Shown here: positions 6,260-57,556 of the stretch, in pieces
Layout of the letters: every line of letters begins with the position of its first letter
Numbering within the stretch: the stretch's first letter is position 1
DNA from: Limosilactobacillus avistercoris
Lineage (GTDB): Bacteria > Bacillota > Bacilli > Lactobacillales > Lactobacillaceae
Direction: 5' to 3'
Length of the DNA: 64,000 nucleotides
NCBI RefSeq assembly: GCF_014836425.1
Contig: NZ_JACSQW010000004.1
Span: 1 to 64,000 of the forward strand
Position numbers and translations under genes: made by a program
The notes under the pieces: model-generated
The model's database searches: none
Told to the model about the DNA's origin: nothing
What the model saw: only the letters and a program-made list of their open reading frames with translations

Positions 6260-7447
6260 TTATGCTTCAAGAGCCTGTGAAAGTGCTTCGCCAAGCCGCT
6301 TTAATCCGACTTCAATCTGGTCTTCTTGCATGTTAGAGTAATTCAACCGGAATGTTCCTGGTTGCGGTTTTCCAGCAAAGAATGGATCACCCGGGACAAA
6401 AGCAACATTATGTTCAAGACATTGTTTAAATAATTTAACAGTGTCAGTGACTCCTGGAACCTCTACCCAGAGGAACATCCCTCCTTCTGGATCGGTGTAC
6501 TTAACATCCTTTGGGAAATATTTCTTAATTCCATCAATCATCAGTTGCTTGCGTTTCCCATAAAGATCACTAATTTCCTTAACATGCGCGTCAACATCAT
6601 TTTCCTTGAAGAACTCAGTTACTACATACTGGACGAGGTTATCCGTGTGAAGATCAGCAGATTGCTTTAACACGGTTAATTTTTCAATTACTTTTGGATC
6701 CGCTACTAACCAGCCAAGACGGAATCCCGGCGCGAGAATCTTTGAGAACGTACTCATGTAAAAGACTTTCCCCGAATGATCAAATGACTTAACAGAAGGT
6801 ACGTGTTCTCCCGCAAAGCGAATATCACCATATGGATTATCTTCAAGAACTGGAACATCGTATTCCGCTGCTAATTCCGCAAACTTCTTTCGTCGTTCCG
6901 CTGGCATTGTTCGTCCAGTTGGGTTTTGGAAGTTTGGTACTGTATAAACCAGCGCTGTTTCTGGATGAGCCTTAAGCGCTTCTTCCAGAGCATCCATCTT
7001 CATTCCGTCCTCATCCATCGGCACACTAACAAAATTAGCGCCATATGAACGAAAAACATCGAGAGCACAAAGGTAGGTTGGCTCTTCCACCAAAACCGTA
7101 TCTCCAGGATTGACAAATGCCTTCCCGACTAAGTCAATTGCTTGTTCAGAACCCGTTGTTACCATCACATTTTCTAGTTTAGCATCAACATTCTCCTTTT
7201 CCTTTACTCGCTTAAGAATCAATTCACGCAGTTCAGTTACCCCTTTAGCAGCACCATATTGAAGTGCTTGTTGACCATGTTCTGCATAAACCTTATCGGT
7301 GGCCTTCTTCATCCCTTCAACTGGGAATAATTCAGGAGCCGGTAATCCACCCGCAAATGAAATGATTTTCGGATCAGCCGCCGCCTTTAAGATTGCACCA
7401 ACAGCATCTGTCCCGTCAGCAGGAACTCTTTTTGAAAATTTAAACAT
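6260..7447 (-). CDS. PLP-dependent aminotransferase, class I/II (LysN/AraT-like)
   Basis: A 395-residue fold-type I aminotransferase. Visible landmarks are ISFAGGLPAPELFP near the N-terminus, YGAAKGVTELRELI, the cofactor-region stretch VYTVPNFQNPTGRTMP, and the Schiff-base lysine in STFSKILAPGFRLGW. This pattern is that of the PLP-dependent 2-aminoadipate/aromatic aminotransferase group related to the MocR catalytic domain. The amino donor cannot be fixed. An AGAGGAG site places the start at 7447. It is a monocistronic minus-strand gene facing away from the T-box leader. Confidence 0.85.
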   Translation of the reverse strand: MFKFSKRVPADGTDAVGAILKAAADPKIISFAGGLPAPELFPVEGMKKATDKVYAEHGQQALQYGAAKGVTELRELILKRVKEKENVDAKLENVMVTTGSEQAIDLVGKAFVNPGDTVLVEEPTYLCALDVFRSYGANFVSVPMDEDGMKMDALEEALKAHPETALVYTVPNFQNPTGRTMPAERRKKFAELAAEYDVPVLEDNPYGDIRFAGEHVPSVKSFDHSGKVFYMSTFSKILAPGFRLGWLVADPKVIEKLTVLKQSADLHTDNLVQYVVTEFFKENDVDAHVKEISDLYGKRKQLMIDGIKKYFPKDVKYTDPEGGMFLWVEVPGVTDTVKLFKQCLEHNVAFVPGDPFFAGKPQPGTFRLNYSNMQEDQIEVGLKRLGEALSQALEA

Positions 7448-7649: not shown

Positions 7650-7922
7650 TCAGATGTAAACACGTTAAAGATACCGAACAGGAAGTAACCTGATTAACTG
7701 GTTCAGAGACTTAGTGGCTGGTGTGAACTAAGCAACGTTAATCAATGTTAAATCCCCTGTGAATTGGCTCCTGAACTAAGTAAGGTTGCCTGGCTGCCGA
7801 CCATTATCCTGGCTCCAGATGAATTTGTCTGGTTCAAGATGTGGACTCTTTCCATAAATGAAGGTGGTACCGCGGCAACGTCGCCCTTCAAGCATATTCA
7901 AATATGCTTGAAGGGTTTTTGT
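7650..7922 (+). promoter_or_regulatory. T-box leader (tRNA-sensing riboswitch)
   Basis: The conserved T-box element GAAGGTGGTACCGCGG lies at about 7859-7875, and the stem I apical element AGAGACTTAGTGGCTGG at about 7705-7722. Stem I helices can be drawn (ACAGG with CCTGT; GATTAAC with GTTAATC). A strong terminator hairpin (CCCTTCAAGCATAT and its complement, then a T-run) ends at 7920. In the antiterminator bulge the base after TGG is T, predicting a tRNA with discriminator A, which argues against Trp, Gly, Asn, His, Cys and Ser. The specifier codon could not be fixed; TTA, GTT and ATC are all in the right region, so a branched-chain amino acid is possible. Confidence 0.9.
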
Positions 7923-18541: not shown

Positions 18542-20668
18542 CTATTTCTGTGGTGCTTCTTCATAATCACCGTTAGGACATACAACTTGGGTACCACCCT
18601 TGATCTTTTTCTCAACTAAGAAGTGACCATCTTTAGGACAATTACGACCAATTGGCTTATCCCAAGAAACAAAGTCACAGTCTGGATAACGAGAACATCC
18701 ATAGAAGGTTCGATTCTTCTTTGACTTTCGTTCAACAACAGTTCCTTGACCACACTTTGGACAAGTTATCCCAGTATCCTTAACAATTGCCTTGGTATTT
18801 CGACAATTTGGGAAACGGGAGCAAGCATAGAACTTACCATAGCGTCCCATTTTAATTACCATTGGGGCCCCACAAATATCACAATCTATTCCGGCAAGTT
18901 CATCTTTCATTTCAATTTTAGCAACCTTGCTTTCAGCGGTGCTAACTTCCTTTGAGAATGGTTGGTAGAAACTATCAACAACCCTTACCCAATTCTGCTT
19001 TCCTTCTTCAATTTGATCAAGCTTACCTTCAACATCAGCAGTAAATTCAGCATTCACGATATCTGGGAACTGCTTTTCAATGATAGTATTAACAATCTCA
19101 CCAAGTTCTGTTGGTTCAAAATGATGCGAAACCAAGCGAACATAATAACGCCGTTGAATAGTATCTAGTGTTGGTGCATAGGTTGAAGGACGACCAACAC
19201 CATTTTCTTCAAGGGTCTTAATCAAGGCTGCTTCAGTATACCGTGCAGGCGGTTGGGTAAAGTGTTGCGCAGGATTATCACTTACCATTAGAGCACTATC
19301 ACCCTCATTTAATTCAGGAAGCAAGTTATCTTGTTCCTTTCCTCGCTTATAAACCTTTGTAAAGCCAAGAAACTTAACCTTAGAACCCGATGCCCGAAAG
19401 TCGACGTCATTTTGTTGAAGGTTAACATTCATCGTATCAATAATTTCGGGCGTCATCTGACTGGCAACAAACCGTGACCAAATTAAGTTATAGAGCTTGT
19501 ATTGGTCATTAGTTAAGTACGGCTTCATTTTTGCTGGTGTCCGATAAACCGAAGTTGGCCGAATCGCTTCATGGGCATCCTGAGCCCCTTCTGGCATTTT
19601 CCCTTTAATCGGTTTTACGGCAGCATATTCACCACCATACTCTTCATGGATAAACTTAGAAGCTTCATGCTTAGCAACAGAGGCAATCCGGGTTGAATCA
19701 GTCCGCATATAGGTAATTAAACCAACTGCTGCTCCTTGTTTAATGTCAATTCCTTCATACAATATTTGAGCAGTCATCATTGTCTTTCGCGTGCGGAAAT
19801 TCAAGCGACGGTTTGCATCTTGTTGCATGGTCGACGTTGTAAATGGTGGTTGCGGTTGACGTTTCCGTTCCCGCTTCGTTACCTTGGTAATTTGGAAATC
19901 CTTATTCTTATCCAATTTACCTAAAACTCGTTGAGCATCATCATTGTTTTTCAGGCTAACCTTTTTCCCGTTCTCGCCATAGAATGATGCCTTAAATTTG
20001 TCCTTATTATGCTTAAATTCAGCATCAATTGTCCAATATTCTTCAGGCTTGAAATTCTTAATTTCATTTTCTCGTTGAATAATAAGGTTAAGAGCAACGG
20101 ACTGCACCCGTCCTGCACTCAAACCTTTCTTTACTTTTTTCCATAAGATCGGGCTGATTGAGTACCCTACTAACCGATCTAATACTCGCCGTGCTTGTTG
20201 AGCGTCAACTAAGTCCATATTGATGGTTCGTGGCTCATTAAAAGCCTCTTTAACCGCATCCTTGGTAATTTCGTTAAAGGTTACCCGGTTTTTTTCAGAA
20301 TCATCTAATTTTAAAATATTAGAAACGTGCCAGGCAATCGCTTCACCTTCACGATCAGGGTCAGATGCAAGGTAGACTGCTTTAGCATTTTTAGCATCTT
20401 TACGCAGTTCCTTAATTACATCCCCTTTTCCTCGAATCGAAATATAATCCGGTTGATAGTCATTTTCAATATCAACTCCCATTCGACTCTTTGGCAAATC
20501 TCGCACGTGACCTAAACTTGCAACAACCTTGTAAGATCGACCCAGGAATTTCCCAATTGTTTTTGCTTTCGATGGTGATTCAACGATCACTAATTTCTTT
20601 TTTGGCTTTGCGCGACGGGTTGTTTTTCGTTTACTCGTCGTTTTTTTCTTTGTAGTACTAGTTGCCAT
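18542..20668 (-). CDS. topA: DNA topoisomerase I
   Basis: A 708-residue type IA topoisomerase. A lysine/arginine-rich leader precedes the Toprim domain ([19 protein letters not shown], then the acidic [12 protein letters not shown]). The active-site tyrosine lies in YMRTDSTRI. At the C-terminus are three zinc-finger-like modules with paired cysteines (CDICGAP...CSRFPNC, CPKCGQG...CSRYPDC, and a last one with fewer cysteines). It relaxes negative supercoils. It normally follows dprA, and here does so with its own promoter after the truncated dprA. Confidence 0.95.
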
Positions 20669-51387: not shown

Positions 51388-52659
51388 CTAAACCAGCCCT
51401 AAATCGTTCAAGTAGCCAGTAGAACGTTGACGGTTCTTGTTTTGTTTCTGTGCTTGTTCCTCTTTCCAGAGTGGAGTAGCGATACAGTACCGAACCGCAT
51501 CTTGAGCGTGGTCATTCTCTTTAACCGGCGCACCTGTTTTTTCATCCCAGATGTATTGGTAAATCTCGTTAATAAAGTTAGGTGCTGCATCCTTAACCAC
51601 ATAGAACTTGTGTTGCTTAATAATACTGGCTACTCGCTCAATACCATCAAGCACATTCTTATAGCCATACTCGGTTTTAATGTGGTGCTGCCTGAAGTTG
51701 TTAATGTGTTCTGTTCTGGCTGTATCAGCAAAGAATATTAGACCCATGCCGTACTTCTTTTTGAATTGCTGAGCAACTCTAATCCAGTGTGGATCAACTT
51801 GTTCAAACTGACCATAAGCTTCATCAACAAGGTAATAGTTGCCCTTATCATCATGACCAATAACTTCAATCGCTGTTGGGTGGTCAAATCCCCAGTCAAC
51901 ACCTGCCGTATAGGTTAGATTGTCTGGTAAATCTTCACGTTCAATGGTCATAGTACGTTCATCAAAATCCTTGTAGACAGCACCTTCACCAGTGACCCAT
52001 AGACCTTTAATTGCTCGATCATAGTACATCCCTGATGGAGTTGAAGCTTTAATCCGTTCAACATAATCTGGCGCCAAGTGGGTGTTGTCGTCAATCGTAA
52101 AGTGATAGACAAGTTTCTTCATCTTCTTGTCTTCCTTGTCGATATAATCCACTTTCAACCAGTGTTGCGGGTTATCTGGGTTGGTATCCACAATGATATG
52201 TGATCCTGGCATAGAACAACGCTGAAGTATTTCTTGAAATACAGGTTCTACACCAAGCGTCGCTTCGTTAACATAGCCTCCATACGCAGTAAAACCACGA
52301 GCGCCTTTCAATCCCGCCATCGTAGCAGTCGAAACAGGCGTTATGTCAACACCAAACAGATGGTAGTGCCCATGTCGGTCAAGCTTAAACTCAACACCAA
52401 ACTGGTTCATGCACGAGATAATCACGTTCTTGTTAATACTGTCTGAACTAGCACCAGCAAGAATATACTGAGGGTGTTTATCGCCATGTTCTTTGGCAAG
52501 TCTAGCTGTCCTCCTTAACTCATAGATAAACAGCAGATTATCAATAAAAGTCTTACCTGAACGAACAGCACCAGTTAGAATCATCATCCCAAAATCATCA
52601 TTCAGATAAGAATGAAGCACTTCTAGTTGTTTTGGTGCTAAGTAATCACCTAGGCTCAT
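51388..52659 (-). CDS. Terminase large subunit (PBSX type)
   Basis: A 423-residue packaging motor. The ATPase has Walker A GAVRSGKT at about 30-37 and a Walker B region; the nuclease half has AGVDWGFDHPTAIEVIG and the acidic NDHAQDAVRYC near the end. It cuts concatemers and drives DNA into proheads. It overlaps the small subunit gene by 14 bases. Confidence 0.95.
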   Translation of the reverse strand: MSLGDYLAPKQLEVLHSYLNDDFGMMILTGAVRSGKTFIDNLLFIYELRRTARLAKEHGDKHPQYILAGASSDSINKNVIISCMNQFGVEFKLDRHGHYHLFGVDITPVSTATMAGLKGARGFTAYGGYVNEATLGVEPVFQEILQRCSMPGSHIIVDTNPDNPQHWLKVDYIDKEDKKMKKLVYHFTIDDNTHLAPDYVERIKASTPSGMYYDRAIKGLWVTGEGAVYKDFDERTMTIEREDLPDNLTYTAGVDWGFDHPTAIEVIGHDDKGNYYLVDEAYGQFEQVDPHWIRVAQQFKKKYGMGLIFFADTARTEHINNFRQHHIKTEYGYKNVLDGIERVASIIKQHKFYVVKDAAPNFINEIYQYIWDEKTGAPVKENDHAQDAVRYCIATPLWKEEQAQKQNKNRQRSTGYLNDLGLV

Positions 52660-53164
52660 TGCTCTTATCCTCCTTTGTAATGGTGTCTAACATCTTATCA
52701 AGCAACAATTCCATATCTTGACCGTTATCTTCAAGCGCCTTAGCACGAGCTTCAGCTACTCTAGCATCAGCCGTAATCTTTTTAAGCTGAGCTTGTACCA
52801 CTGGGTCACTAAGTGGATAACGCTTCATCAGTTCTTTAGCAGCCGTTAGTCGGTCTTTAAAGCTCGGTTTCTTCTCAACGGTGACTACATTATCGCCTGT
52901 TGGTAAGGCAACTTCTTCTGTCTCTTCCTCACGTAACACTCGAGTATAAAATTGAAGCACTTCTTTAGCGTCTGCAATCTTATGTGACTCGATCTCAGCC
53001 ATTTTAGCGTCAATATAGGATTTAATGTCAGGTTTTGTCAGGTTCTCTTGACCAATTGAACGAACTGTTTTAGGTGAATATCCGGCTTTAATCGCAGACT
53101 GTGTGGCGTTGCCACTCTTAATATATTCATCCGCAAATAGTCGTTGTTTTGCTGTTAATTTCAT
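52646..53164 (-). CDS. Terminase small subunit
   Basis: A 172-residue protein opening with LTAKQRLFADEYIKSGNATQ followed by SAIKAGYSPKTVRSIG, the helix-turn-helix of the small terminase family, then a helical oligomerisation region with many charged residues. It recognises the packaging site and recruits the large subunit. It begins the late structural cluster, back to back with hicA. Confidence 0.9.
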   Translation of the reverse strand: MKLTAKQRLFADEYIKSGNATQSAIKAGYSPKTVRSIGQENLTKPDIKSYIDAKMAEIESHKIADAKEVLQFYTRVLREEETEEVALPTGDNVVTVEKKPSFKDRLTAAKELMKRYPLSDPVVQAQLKKITADARVAEARAKALEDNGQDMELLLDKMLDTITKEDKSNEPR

Positions 53165-53896: not shown

Positions 53897-54032
53897 TATT
53901 TTTATGTACTTTAAAAGCTGGCAAGCGTTTACCTGTCAGCTTTTTCTTTTGCTTCATATGTCTATCGGCTCGGCACAGCATCATATATTCTTGTTTAGAT
54001 GCTACCAAGCCGAATCGTTTAGTCTGATACAT
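53886..54032 (-). CDS. Small basic phage protein (48 aa)
   Basis: A 48-residue basic protein beginning MYQTKRFGLVASKQEYMMLC and continuing RADRHMKQKKKLTGKR. Its ATG overlaps the stop of the upstream gene (TAATG) and its end overlaps the end of hicB on the other strand by 11 bases. The basic composition suggests nucleic-acid binding. No family recognised. Confidence 0.45.
   Translation of the reverse strand: MYQTKRFGLVASKQEYMMLCRADRHMKQKKKLTGKRLPAFKVHKNIKH
53914..53947 (+). terminator. hicAB terminator
   Basis: AAAGCTGGCA and TGTCAGCTTTTTC form a stem with T-run on the plus strand; it lies inside the small minus-strand gene. Confidence 0.65.
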
Positions 54033-54229
54033 TAAGCACAGTACCTCGCAAAATCAATCTGTTTTGTTTTCAAGGCTTCTCGTGCCATTAATTGTGCTTC
54101 TGGATTGCCAGCAACCACTTCTTTAAGTATATCCTTGTAAAGGTCATCCTCCATCTCGTGAGCCATTTCAAAATCACCTTTGCAGTCATTAATATTTCTT
54201 ACCATATCTTTCACTTCAGTAAGTTTCAT
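54032..54229 (-). CDS. Phage protein of unknown function
   Basis: A 65-residue acidic helical protein (MKLTEVKDMVRNINDCKGDF; MAREALKTKQIDFARYCA at the end). Translationally coupled to the next small gene. No recognisable domain. Confidence 0.5.
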   Translation of the reverse strand: MKLTEVKDMVRNINDCKGDFEMAHEMEDDLYKDILKEVVAGNPEAQLMAREALKTKQIDFARYCA

Positions 54230-54364: not shown

Positions 54365-54982
54365 TTAATCCATCTCCCGAAAAAGGTTCATGATAATCTT
54401 CATTATAAATTGCTGTATTCCTATTAAATCTTTCTCAAATTGAATCAATACTTGTTGATTGTAATTAGCATCAAATTTTTCAGAGGAGATAGGTTGATTT
54501 ATTCCTGTTATTAAAAAGTGCAGAGTTCTTTCAACTTCTGTTCCATTTTCTTGAAGAGAATTCATTATTGATTGATATTCTTTCAAATCGCTTTTAGTAG
54601 CTTTTACTAAAGACATTAATGTGCCAGCATTAAACATAACAGTGTGCAGCTGTTCAAGTGCACTGTTAGCAGAAGTAATAACCATAATATTTTCTTCATT
54701 TAATGAAGGAGTTCTGAATCTATAAACGCTTTCTATAACAATGTTAATGTCACTTATTAGTTCTTCATATAATCTATCTTTTTTCTCTAACTCAGATAAA
54801 CAGAATTGCAATTTATACGATTTATTTTGAGCTTCTATGTTATTTTCCTTTGTTTTCTCAAGTTGTTCTAAAATTTTTTCTCGTTCGCTGTTAGCATTTT
54901 TCTTGGCTGTCAGCACAGCCAATCCCCATGCTATAAAAGCAGGTCCAAAAGCTTTAAGACCTTCCCAAAGCATTTCTTTCAT
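54365..54982 (-). CDS. Membrane-anchored coiled-coil protein of unknown function
   Basis: A 205-residue protein with one N-terminal span (FGPAFIAWGLAVLTA) followed by a long heptad region (EREKILEQLEKTKENNIEAQ) and a helical domain (ANSALEQLHTVMFNAGTLMS). It starts behind AGGTG, eight bases before the ATG. The upstream AGGTGAAAAT has a perfect complementary copy on the other side of a terminator hairpin, which could hide its ribosome site. It sits in the accessory block between terminase and the large structured RNA, a place where lysogenic-conversion genes are common. Function unknown. Confidence 0.55.
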   Translation of the reverse strand: MKEMLWEGLKAFGPAFIAWGLAVLTAKKNANSEREKILEQLEKTKENNIEAQNKSYKLQFCLSELEKKDRLYEELISDINIVIESVYRFRTPSLNEENIMVITSANSALEQLHTVMFNAGTLMSLVKATKSDLKEYQSIMNSLQENGTEVERTLHFLITGINQPISSEKFDANYNQQVLIQFEKDLIGIQQFIMKIIMNLFREMD

Positions 54983-55007
54983 TTCATTTTCACCTCATAC
55001 ATATATT

Positions 55008-55036
55008 ACAAAAGCCCAGTCAAACTGACTAGGCTA
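55008..55036 (-). terminator. Terminator at the end of the large structured RNA
   Basis: AGCCTAGTCA, GTT, TGACTGGGCTTTT on the minus strand. Flanked by ATTTTCACCT and AGGTGAAAAT, an outer 10-bp inverted repeat that includes the ribosome site of the following gene. Confidence 0.75.
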
Positions 55037-55226
55037 AGGTGAAAATAAAATGTGTACCCAGTTTTCCACGCTGAGTACGACTTCAACAAGCGGTGTTGCT
55101 ATTAACAAACAATATATAGATTTTTAATATATTTTTGTTGGGTGCTTGCTGAAGCATGTAAGCAATCGAGTTGACGTGTCTAAAAATACAGTAGATATTT
55201 TTGATGATTGCTCACAAAGCTAGAGA

Positions 55227-55243
55227 GCGGAGTCGAACCGCTG
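55227..55243 (-). ncRNA. tRNA T-arm-like hairpin inside the large RNA
   Basis: AGCGG-TTCGACT-CCGCT has the stem length and loop of a T arm, and AGTTGGAC upstream resembles a D loop, but no matching acceptor or anticodon stem can be drawn. A tRNA mimic or remnant, not a working tRNA gene. Confidence 0.5.
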
Positions 55244-55918
55244 CTGTGCGTGAATAGTCTAGCGTGCAGCTGAGGTCCAACTGCCCTATTCATGCCCTAC
55301 CGAGGACCATAGCTGAAGCACTGTTAATATCAAAAGAGGAGGCTTAACATCTCCTTTAATTGATTGTGCTTCAATATGGAAGGCATAAGACAAGTGAGGT
55401 GCTAGTTTCACCTCCAGATATATATTGCCTTCCAAAGTAAACACTGGGAACTGCCCCCACAAGCGTTGTCGCTTGGTGTCTACTTTCACGTATTCACATA
55501 ATCAGAACTAATTAACTACCGCACCCGGTCGTAGTTTTCCGCCTACTCCTGTAACAGATGTTAGTGTTCTGAACAATTGCAATCTTTTAGCCGTTGAGTT
55601 GAATTGCAGTACTCTTTTGCTGATAACAGCACGGCTGCCGTGAGACTAGCAGAGACGACATAATATAAATCTTATGGAGAATTTATGAATAACCGTACAT
55701 TACATGTAAAAATTGGATTAATTGGAAGCTAGTCTCAACGTGGATGATGGAGCTTGCATCCATCTCCGGCTTGGCTACCGTTCCACACACCTACGCTTTA
55801 CAGAGAGATTCTGAGATAAACATAAGTAACATACGTCTATCTAAGCAGTTTAAGGACGTGAATGCTGAAGTCATTCGTGCTCAGGTCACATCTAATTCTT
55901 TCGACAATACCATTATGG

Positions 55919-55947
55919 CTTATAAAGTAGCCTCGTGATGACCCCAA
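55919..55947 (-). promoter_or_regulatory. Candidate promoter of the large RNA
   Basis: On the minus strand TATAAG (-10, 55924-55919) lies 17 bases after TTGGGG (55947-55942), a poor -35 that overlaps the last of five 11-bp repeats. A weak -35 with adjacent repeats is the layout of an activator-dependent promoter. Confidence 0.55.
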
Positions 55948-56435
55948 TTTGACCCCTCTTTTGCCCCGTTTTGGCCCATTTTTGTCCCAAATTTAGCATG
56001 GAGGTCTGGAATTATCTTTTCTTCAACAGAATAATAGTCACAAGCCGGTTCAATACAATCCGCAAATTCTAAGGCTGCCTGCTTAACTAATTTGTTATAG
56101 GTACCATTGCCTTTATAGCCAATTTGATTTTTGATTTTCCAGTTAGGCAACTCGTCAATGTATTTAAGTTGAATTATCTTTTGACTAGTTAGGCTACACC
56201 CTTTTATTGCATAACGCACAGCATACAAGGCGCTAGCATAACGGGAATGATTAATCATTCTTCTCTCAGAACCATTACCAGCAGAGGGTGCTTTAGGCAT
56301 ACCGTCAATAGATGGCGAACTATAATCTCCCCATGCTCCAGCTTTTCGCTTAATTTCTGGTAACCGTTCATAGAAGAACCATCTTACAGCATGATAGGTC
56401 TCATCTACGTCTAACTCATCGAACAACGCCACCAT
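55920..56435 (-). CDS. ArpU-like phage late transcription regulator
   Basis: A 171-residue protein of the ArpU/RinA-like group of late activators: ETYHAVRWFFYERLPEIKRK, MINHSRYASALYAVRYAIKG and a C-terminal helix-turn-helix-like region (QKIIQLKYIDELPNWKIKNQ, IGYKGNGTYNKLVKQAALEF). These switch on the packaging-to-lysis transcript. GGGAG seven bases before the ATG sets the start at 56435. Its last codons contain five GGGNCAAAA repeats at 11-bp intervals, a DNA-level signal inside the coding sequence. Confidence 0.7.
   Translation of the reverse strand: MVALFDELDVDETYHAVRWFFYERLPEIKRKAGAWGDYSSPSIDGMPKAPSAGNGSERRMINHSRYASALYAVRYAIKGCSLTSQKIIQLKYIDELPNWKIKNQIGYKGNGTYNKLVKQAALEFADCIEPACDYYSVEEKIIPDLHAKFGTKMGQNGAKEGSNWGHHEATL
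55942..55988 (-). repeat. Five GGGNCAAAA direct repeats, 11-bp period
   Basis: On the plus strand CCC begins at 55942, 55953, 55964, 55975 and 55986, each preceded by a T-rich TTTTG-like block. The period is one helical turn and not a multiple of 3, so it is not imposed by the protein. Probably binding sites for an activator of the adjacent promoter. Confidence 0.7.
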
Positions 56436-56452
56436 TAGCACTCTCCCTTATG

Positions 56453-56712: not shown

Positions 56713-57150
56713 TTACACCTCCCCAATCTTTAATCGTGATTCAATTTCATAAATTGCTCCGTCGAGGTCATAGCCTTGGTTGATATGTGGATCGACGTAC
56801 GGCTTAACGTGATTGTAAAACCAGGCGGTGCCGTGATGGAACAAGTCGCAAATAAACTCAATTTTGAAGCCCATTTCTCTTAGTGCTATTCCTTGTGAAG
56901 CTTCATTCTGATTTGGTACCTGTTTGAGTAACTTGCGTAGCCGTTCGGCCTTTTCTTCAATTTCCATCGTCTTCTTCTGGTGGCCACCACGCATTGCAAT
57001 TAGTGCCTGATAGTCTGGATCATTCTCGTAATCGGGGATGTATTGTCTAATCAGCTTTTCTGTATGACCGCCTAGAAACAACTTATCTCCTGGCCCACCT
57101 GCTATGCTGACCTTGTCCTCCAAGTTAGCCATCGTTTTGCTAATTTTCAT
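56713..57150 (-). CDS. Conserved phage protein of unknown function
   Basis: A 145-residue mixed-charge protein (LFLGGHTEKLIRQYIPDYEN; GYDLDGAIYEIESRLKIGEV at the end). It overlaps the RusA gene by 11 bases and precedes the late regulator, in the late-early junction. An internal start at 57132 is possible. Confidence 0.5.
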   Translation of the reverse strand: MKISKTMANLEDKVSIAGGPGDKLFLGGHTEKLIRQYIPDYENDPDYQALIAMRGGHQKKTMEIEEKAERLRKLLKQVPNQNEASQGIALREMGFKIEFICDLFHHGTAWFYNHVKPYVDPHINQGYDLDGAIYEIESRLKIGEV

Positions 57151-57556
57151 CCAGCTTTGTCACCTCAATTTCTACTCGTGGCTTATCTGAATAATACTTG
57201 TGTGCTACTAGATCGACTATCTGATTATCGTCTTCCCACAGAAGCCCATTTAAGCCATCCAAAGTTGATTTAATGTAATTATCCGTGTCAGGTTTTACAA
57301 CGGGTCTGTGGCTACCAGAGAGACGTAATTTACGTTCTTTTTTTGAAATGCTCGACTGTACATGACGGAAGAATCTTAATTCAACTTTCAACGGCCCGGT
57401 TATTGGCTCTTTTTTATACTGCAGTTGGCACATCATTGCTAACTGCTTTTTGTATACTGATACCTTCTTAGGGTCATAAAGTCTAATTCCTCGGCCCATC
57501 TTAGTTGCACGTGGTCGTGCTTGTTCAACCGGTTCAATTTCAAACACTAACTTCAC
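57140..57556 (-). CDS. rusA: RusA-like Holliday junction resolvase
   Basis: A 138-residue endonuclease with the RusA motif KPDTDNYIKSTLDGLNGLLW holding the aspartates that bind Mg2+, and EPVEQARPRATKMGRGIRLY at the N-terminus. It cleaves four-way junctions during phage recombination and frees branches before packaging. It starts with GTG, overlapping the stop of the small upstream gene (GTGA). Confidence 0.85.
   Translation of the reverse strand: MKLVFEIEPVEQARPRATKMGRGIRLYDPKKVSVYKKQLAMMCQLQYKKEPITGPLKVELRFFRHVQSSISKKERKLRLSGSHRPVVKPDTDNYIKSTLDGLNGLLWEDDNQIVDLVAHKYYSDKPRVEIEVTKLDEN

Follow-up and report, generated by a model that had tools for sequence, protein, structure and literature searches.

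A probable large non-coding RNA with a tRNA-like module at the head of a late operon in a Limosilactobacillus avistercoris prophage

Within the 64,000 nt of Limosilactobacillus avistercoris DNA analysed here (the window), the minus-strand region from about 55905 to 55007 is very probably a structured RNA gene. The preferred reading, to which a probability of roughly 0.6 is given, is that it encodes one large non-coding RNA that is the first product of a phage late operon, GOLLD-like in kind and belonging to a separate family. This explanation is the best supported on the strength of a match to the Lacto-phage-1 RNA motif, a long-range helix (P1), tRNA-like modules, a consensus structure of the window and its relatives, DNA repeats ahead of the RNA and the family of the activator encoded upstream. 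A preliminary description had proposed a giant structured prophage RNA of about 900 nt on the minus strand, and this proposal stands, the extent and strand fitting the conserved ends in relatives. The tRNA-related part and the visible transcription unit that it described were also right in kind.

The RNA and its neighbours, in minus-strand order, are as follows.
57140-57556, minus strand: RusA-like resolvase gene, the first in this order, followed by two small ORFs
55920-56441, minus strand: phage transcriptional activator gene (PHROG 248, E 9.1e-28), directly 5' of the RNA
55007-55905, minus strand: the large non-coding RNA as a whole, about 0.9 kb with predicted ends (fold z-score, alignment, homologous DNA)
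54365-54982, minus strand: gene for a 205-aa protein without family, 3' of the RNA
54032-54229, minus strand: gene for a small phage protein
53266-53896, plus strand: HicA/HicB-like toxin-antitoxin pair, in inverted orientation, in the part of the late region that separates the RNA from the terminase genes
52646-53164, minus strand: terminase small subunit gene
51388-52659, minus strand: terminase large subunit gene

The RNA is thus surrounded by phage late genes, and the ORFs on its 3' side differ between relatives. Several further observations concern neighbouring genes or other parts of the sequences. By eye, a HicB-like ORF of a similar kind lies near the RNA in loci L045 and L054, and in L127 the protein encoded directly 3' of the RNA (6413-7375, minus strand) resembles the Abi_2 (AbiD/AbiF) abortive infection proteins. 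In L. brevis phage LBR48 (L113), two Rfam tRNA matches fall in a gap at 20008-20223, directly 3' of a transcription regulator gene (19459-19926), i.e. in the same place as the window RNA. Elsewhere in the window, a T-box leader was detected at 7665-7891 on the plus strand (93.9 bits, cut-off 93).

Folding of 55008-55920 on the minus strand gives -278.6 kcal/mol against -231.2 kcal/mol for shuffled sequences (z -5.95; 0 of 20 shuffles equal). The signal of the plus strand is weaker (z -3.28), with 0 of 20 shuffles as good there also. The absence of a credible gene noted earlier was upheld, as the ORFs at 55286-55489 (minus strand) and 55744-55938 (plus strand) have no Pfam match up to E 0.01, and a protein gene was rejected. 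A prophage attachment site was likewise rejected, by the argument that a tRNA remnant of that origin would be expected beside an integrase gene. From promoter-like element to terminator the RNA spans about 890 nt in the window, and from 730 to 1180 nt across those loci with both ends located (18 of 38). The window and four relatives could be aligned over the full length (alignment A4; 1060 columns, mean identity 73%). The consensus of these five sequences has 176 pairs, 25 of them with two-sided changes, and its covariation term as a whole is slightly unfavourable at +1.29 kcal/mol.

Relatives were gathered from several samples. Of 95 genomes searched, 15 have homologous DNA; all 15 belong to one genus, and both the own genome and genome G410 are among them. 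Of 50 genomes in the genus, 16 contain Lacto-phage-1 at a limit of E 0.001, and 13 of these exceed the cut-off (G410 counted); an even sample of the order gave 1 of 395, this being the own genome, under strict filters that lose weak matches. Further loci came from scans of virus contigs and genomes, and a DNA similarity search of a phage collection gave no match. Among 14 named records matched by the core pattern, ten are Limosilactobacillus, one is 'Lactobacillus sp.' and three are chance matches. The pattern matches in Acidobacteria, Lampropedia and Armatimonadota were discarded as chance (L085 and L095 have no core profile match, L092 one of only 12.8 bits), and L126, L128, L130 and L132 were dropped for having, by eye, no T-arm behind the pattern. 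The 49 core profile matches, less 11 identical cores, left 38 distinct loci including the window. Two of these, L047 and L048 from G410, were left out because the gene order of that genome is reversed with strands kept and the RNA on the opposite strand, so that it looks like a processed file; the reversal was checked for L047 and judged from gene order for L048. With the addition of L114 and L115 the number is again 38 including the window. Among the 38, L058 has only a weak core match (20.3 bits). L054, L055 and L059 share only short stretches with the window RNA and have no core. Alignment A2 of the core comprises 33 of the 38 loci, omitting L058, L062, L068, L075 and L114 as short or weak.

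The best-conserved part of the RNA lies toward its 5' end and includes the following features.
55453-55792, minus strand: conserved 5' core domain (49 profile matches, 38 distinct including the window; A2, 33 loci)
55579-55659, minus strand: Lacto-phage-1 RNA motif (RF03004; cmscan 94.4 bits, gathering score 50)
55728-55736, minus strand: 5' strand of the long-range helix P1, GAGACTAGC (pair counts on A2)
55642-55650, minus strand: 3' strand of P1, GCTAGTCTC, in the Lacto-phage-1 loop (pair counts on A2)

Lacto-phage-1 was the sole match above threshold at the stretch among 4227 Rfam families, and its 81-nt model was matched end to end (positions 1-81). In A2, GAGACTA.. pairs with ..TAGTCTC in a loop that the Rfam model shows as unpaired, and P1 thereby forms a pseudoknot with the stem 55656-55659 / 55637-55640. 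Over the 33 rows, 98.5% of 329 cells of P1 are paired, compared with 26-55% for slid versions, and at pair 8 there are 22 rows with U-A and 11 with G-C. The cells paired and the covariation score were reached by 0 of 500 shuffles; two-sided changes occur at only two pairs, a count reached by 84 of 500 shuffles. The stem enclosing the P1 loop is present in 28 of the 33 rows with changing letters, e.g. GCTAC/GTAGC, TGCCT/AGGCA, GCGCC/GGCGT, TACCG/CGGTA, GCCG/CGGC and GTGCC/GGCAC, with TGTCG/CGGCA in the window. The exceptions are L042, L044, L067 and L091, where the script chose another pairing, and L052, where none is in place. By eye, the core domain also has a three-hairpin head (GTGGA/TCCAC, CGG/CCG, ATGG/CCAT), the outer stem of which changes to GCGGA/TCCGC in L056.

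Together, the P1 pairing and the enclosing stem point to a conserved core that is a pseudoknot and to Lacto-phage-1 as a fragment of a larger fold, which indicates, at the level of sequence comparison, that this small motif is part of an RNA about ten times larger. No paper naming Lacto-phage-1 or RF03004 was found in a search that covered mostly papers outside subscription and is silent on print at large. The conserved pseudoknot is a different one from the GGTCC/GGACC pairing suggested in the preliminary description. The letters of that pairing are present, but among the five sequences of A4 only the window has GGACC at the position, and the GGTCC letters coincide in part with the acceptor strand and D-arm of a tRNA-like module; the pairing was rejected.

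The 3' half of the RNA holds the tRNA-like module, with these parts.
55218-55313, minus strand: tRNA-like module (parse, comparison of 25 distinct modules of the type, A4 consensus)
55307-55313 with 55219-55225, minus strand: acceptor, GCTATGG with CTCTAGC, 6 of 7 pairs
55295-55306, minus strand: mini D-arm, TCCT-CGGT-AGGG
55242-55226, minus strand: T-arm hairpin, AGCGG-TTCGACT-CCGCT, T-stem 5/5

The T-arm hairpin had been pointed out beforehand and is exact. As in tRNA, its TTCRA loop is closed by G-C and the module has a pairing acceptor. A long variable arm lies between the mini D-arm and the T-arm. In place of a standard anticodon arm (5 bp, 7-nt loop) there is a 52-nt stretch with other hairpins, and TTTGT follows the acceptor instead of CCA. 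ARAGORN gave 0 tRNA genes in the window, and the Rfam tRNA model RF00005 had no match in 54980-56000 up to E 5.

Relatives were compared by a strict test that combines a T-arm (loop TTCRANN, stem at least 4/5) with a 7-bp acceptor, the T-loop letters being set by the search. It was passed by 29 of the 38 loci, with 47 cases in all, against a mean of 0.69 loci and a maximum of 3 in 100 dinucleotide-shuffle sets and 0 of 38 on the opposite strand. One case, in L051, looks spurious, being AT-rich and inside an ORF. Nine loci failed: L067, L071, L081 and L091 hold a weaker module, and L044, L061, L062, L063 and L072 have no module, strict or weaker. A search with a module D-arm pattern gave 0 matches in 301 family genomes and is uninformative, since the pattern misfits the module of the window itself.

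By eye, the modules form a series from seemingly complete tRNAs through tRNA-shaped elements to minimal mimics. Rfam tRNA matches fall inside the RNA of L045, L052, L056, L058, L078, L114 and L115. Seemingly complete tRNAs (by eye) are an Asn tRNA in L054, which has a module and a 3' end in common with the window RNA and lacks the core, and a Gln-like tRNA in L115. The elements of L052 and L056 are tRNA-shaped without the usual U33 before the anticodon, and the other modules are minimal mimics without a normal D-arm or anticodon arm. There are up to three, perhaps four, modules per RNA, and both arm and number vary.

Modules of the window type run in the order acceptor, mini D-arm (mostly with a YGG(Y) loop), variable arm and T-arm, with no CCA. 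The 25 distinct modules of this type remained after eight chance parses had been taken out by eye. Acceptor pairs 1-4 and 7 are paired in 24-25 of the 25, with letters often differing, and the non-pairs are concentrated elsewhere: pair 6 is C-C in 11, pair 5 is T-C in 7 and the first T-stem pair lacks a standard pair in 12. The D-stem was required to be fully paired in this set, so its 100% pairing is by construction and only changes of pair type are informative. The 4-base D-loop on a 5-6 bp stem resembles that of tRNA-Sec, and weak tRNA-Sec matches (E 1.2-1.5) were found in L127, L129, L131 and L133 and none in the window. These same four loci have a module of the window type, with a weak core in L127 and, in the other three, no core match and tRNA matches nearby. 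A second kind of non-coding stretch, about 1.2 kb long and with tRNA matches and the same module, is present at 1870-3058 of L129 and also in L131 and L133. It lies upstream of a RinA/Alt-like regulator (PHROG 36 and 2198 in L129), with a near-identical ORF in L133.

Energetically, the tRNA-like fold of the window module lies at -24.4 kcal/mol, 6.7 kcal/mol above the minimum of -31.1 kcal/mol, and free folding shows all three arms in only 6 of the 25 modules. The energy model is blind to tertiary contacts. The A4 consensus of five sequences draws acceptor, D-arm and T-arm without constraint.

The elements that would control transcription lie at the two ends of the RNA.
55940-55989, minus strand: direct repeats with a unit of about 11 bp (five counted by eye; GGGRC/GGGGTCA type), within the 3' end of the activator gene
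55902-55917, minus strand: conserved promoter-like element, CATAATGGTATTGTCG (regular expression), with a -10-like hexamer at 55912-55917
55035-55013, minus strand: terminator, AGCCTAGTCAGTTTGACTGGGCT followed by TTTTG, with 10 pairs and a T-run

A PHROG 248 gene lies 5' of the RNA in all nine relatives tested, including L058 and L127 with their weak cores. The window repeats occupy the last codons of the activator gene, directly 5' of the promoter-like element, and are reported by TRF with period 11 and 3.7 copies at 55948-55988. Over 22 distinct loci including the window, the mean self-match at 11 bp is 0.520, where letter shuffles average 0.280 and never exceed 0.317, and a second peak lies at 22 bp. 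The period is constant and the repeated letters vary by phage, e.g. GGGGTCA, TGGCGGT, ACGGGA, AGGAAC, TTGCCGGT and CTGCAG. By this analysis, the repeats are probably the operator of the activator. In the available text of PMC13123087, the gene of Ltr in phage phi13 itself carries four repeats at its 3' end, and Alt of TP901-1 binds four repeats at -76 to -32. The Alt/Ltr-type layout, in which the activator gene ends in repeats that are followed by promoter and late genes, is found in the window.

Transcription would start near 55905. The promoter claimed in the preliminary description is sustained as regards a conserved element at the 5' end, matched by regular expression in 22 of 38 loci including the window; the other 16 were set aside, some being cut short and some having a variant visible by eye. 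The consensus scan does not bear it out, finding none there on the minus strand: it returned 6 sites against a shuffle mean of 2.4, with no consensus -35 at the 5' end. The terminator described previously was recovered. The scan gave 4 terminator-like sites against 0.5 in shuffles, and a similar terminator is present at the 3' end of the four A4 relatives.

It is plausible that the stretch works like GOLLD. That it is GOLLD, as the preliminary description had it, is not supported, in searches without a positive control. The covariance model RF02032 (416 positions, cut-off 150 bits) has no match at the locus (54980-56000, E up to 5). At E up to 10 it had no match on the RNA locus in a search of the whole own genome, in five related core-bearing loci, or in four module-bearing loci, one of them with a weak core. 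Matches over the cut-off were absent from 151 family genomes, 178 order genomes and 10 genomes or phage records, and the phage records LBR48, Lb338-1, LP65, phiEF24C and Jay2Jay had none; as the model exceeded its cut-off nowhere searched, these searches contain no positive control for it. Weak matches in four genomes (E 0.28-7.2) lie elsewhere, none on RNA loci, and at the same lax limit the model also matches in 5 of 14 control genomes. The pattern of conservation differs as well. GOLLD has a universally conserved 3' region and a variable 5' region in the available text of PMC12286853, and here the matches to a whole-RNA query favour the 5' core: outside the own locus, 14 of 24 matched stretches lie mainly in the core and 4 are confined to the last 55 nt. 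Most later relatives were fetched via the core, which makes their having it in common partly a matter of construction; the module is present in L127 and L129 despite a weak or absent core. Two features are in common with GOLLD. At about 890 nt, a predicted length, the RNA falls in the size class and setting of GOLLD (large, many over 800 nt, in Lactobacillales prophages), and a tRNA lies within or beside the RNA in relatives, the window itself having just a tRNA-like module.

A very divergent GOLLD, past recognition by the Rfam model, would account for the shared size class, host order and prophage setting, and for the tRNA or pseudo-tRNA that can also sit in GOLLD (PMC12286853, PMC6582537, in the text available). 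It is nevertheless improbable given the silence of RF02032 at the locus (E 5) and in the own genome and nine other loci (E 10), from a model without positive control, and given a best-conserved domain that is 5' here and 3' in GOLLD. The position between activator and late genes, with a terminator at the end, would also suit a long cis-acting late-operon leader, the structure of which controls read-through of the terminator by RNA-based or Q-type antitermination without any job in trans. Such a leader is rather unlikely: hundreds of bases separate the terminator from both the core and the tRNA-like module, different ORFs stand behind the RNA in different relatives, and it can be argued that attenuation needs neither such size nor tRNA mimicry.

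The modules might instead be decoys that soak up host defence proteins which cut or sense tRNA, the rest of the RNA being a scaffold. An arms race would predict the varying arm and number of modules, up to three or perhaps four per RNA, and modules mostly without a standard anticodon arm that keep the elbow fit the same idea. The decoy idea is unlikely, however: the arm resembling an anticodon arm, where such nucleases cut, is the least conserved part. The start of the terminase small subunit gene about 1.8 kb downstream would be in keeping with a DNA element with inverted repeats, i.e. a cos or pac packaging start. This was rejected as highly improbable because the tRNA mimicry is strand-specific (0 of 38 on the opposite strand), the long-range pairing shows compensatory changes, and a promoter-like element and a terminator are present.

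The large late-operon RNA remains the preferred reading. Conservation, pseudoknot pairing, tRNA-like modules, repeats, terminator and gene order are shown by the sequences, and the following course of events is proposed beyond them. At lytic onset, the activator encoded upstream would bind the 11-bp repeats that lie within the 3' end of its gene, switching on the promoter at about 55905. Transcription would then cross the RNA and mostly end at the terminator 55035-55013, with read-through leading into the late genes from terminase onward. In the fold of the RNA, the Lacto-phage-1 pseudoknot would form the basis of a 5' domain, and the 3' half would hold one or more tRNA-like modules. Like GOLLD and ROOL, the other giant phage RNAs, the RNA may act as a structural RNA that is abundant late, possibly as an oligomer or cage. 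For GOLLD, 14-mer cages and ribosome binding in pull-downs are reported in the available text of PMC12286853. The modules may have evolved from phage tRNA genes, keeping the tRNA elbow (T-arm and GG-bearing D-loop) and acceptor and losing decoding. That the elbow is retained while decoding is lost suggests a link with the ribosome or with host proteins that handle tRNA. The likeliest role of the modules would be to present the RNA to the ribosome or to host tRNA enzymes (RNase P, RNase Z) for cleavage or retention there.

A bolder version, which is tentative and held at less than even odds, is that the RNA belongs to a class of its own among giant phage RNAs, sharing no descent with GOLLD or ROOL, in which captured tRNA genes became a row of up to three or four mimics on a folded scaffold made as the first late-operon product. 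Displayed perhaps on an RNA-only multimer, the mimics would bind large amounts of a host machine that handles tRNA, be it processing enzymes, the ribosome or tRNA nucleases. To our knowledge, the giant phage RNAs GOLLD and ROOL have elaborate folds and no known function, and their recurrent link with tRNA is unexplained. In the RNA described here that link appears to be built in and readable stepwise, from seemingly intact tRNA genes to minimal mimics. The RNA is found in a genus of culturable lactobacilli, its promoter logic predicts the time of its appearance, and a small Rfam family is indicated to be a fragment of something about ten times larger.

Among known systems, the RNA compares with Lacto-phage-1, all 81 model positions of which match the core at 94.4 bits. 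The Rfam model is small, whereas here it covers just a portion of an RNA that measures about 0.9 kb in the window and 0.7-1.2 kb in relatives, and the loop that it gives as unpaired is one strand of a long-range helix. The transcription unit resembles the late promoters of TP901-1 (Alt) and S. aureus phi13 (Ltr) in having an activator gene, repeats before the promoter and late genes behind it; the position of the repeats at the 3' end of the activator gene is common to the window and phi13, and the difference from both phages is that a giant RNA with its own terminator comes first here. The modules share with tRNA, tRNA-Sec and tmRNA a canonical T-arm, an acceptor and the GG of the D-loop, but differ from tRNA in the missing CCA, mismatched acceptor, non-standard anticodon arm and scores below the family cut-offs. 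ROOL is similarly a large structured phage RNA associated with tRNAs, but no ROOL family was among the Rfam matches of the window stretch (E 5) or nine other loci (E 10), the presence of the model in the library being unchecked. GOLLD is likewise giant, found in Lactobacillales prophages, able to hold a tRNA or pseudo-tRNA and, as would probably be the case here, late; it differs in the lack of a sequence-structure match and in having its best-conserved domain at the 3' rather than the 5' side, and relatives of the window RNA bear up to three or four degenerate tRNA-like modules.
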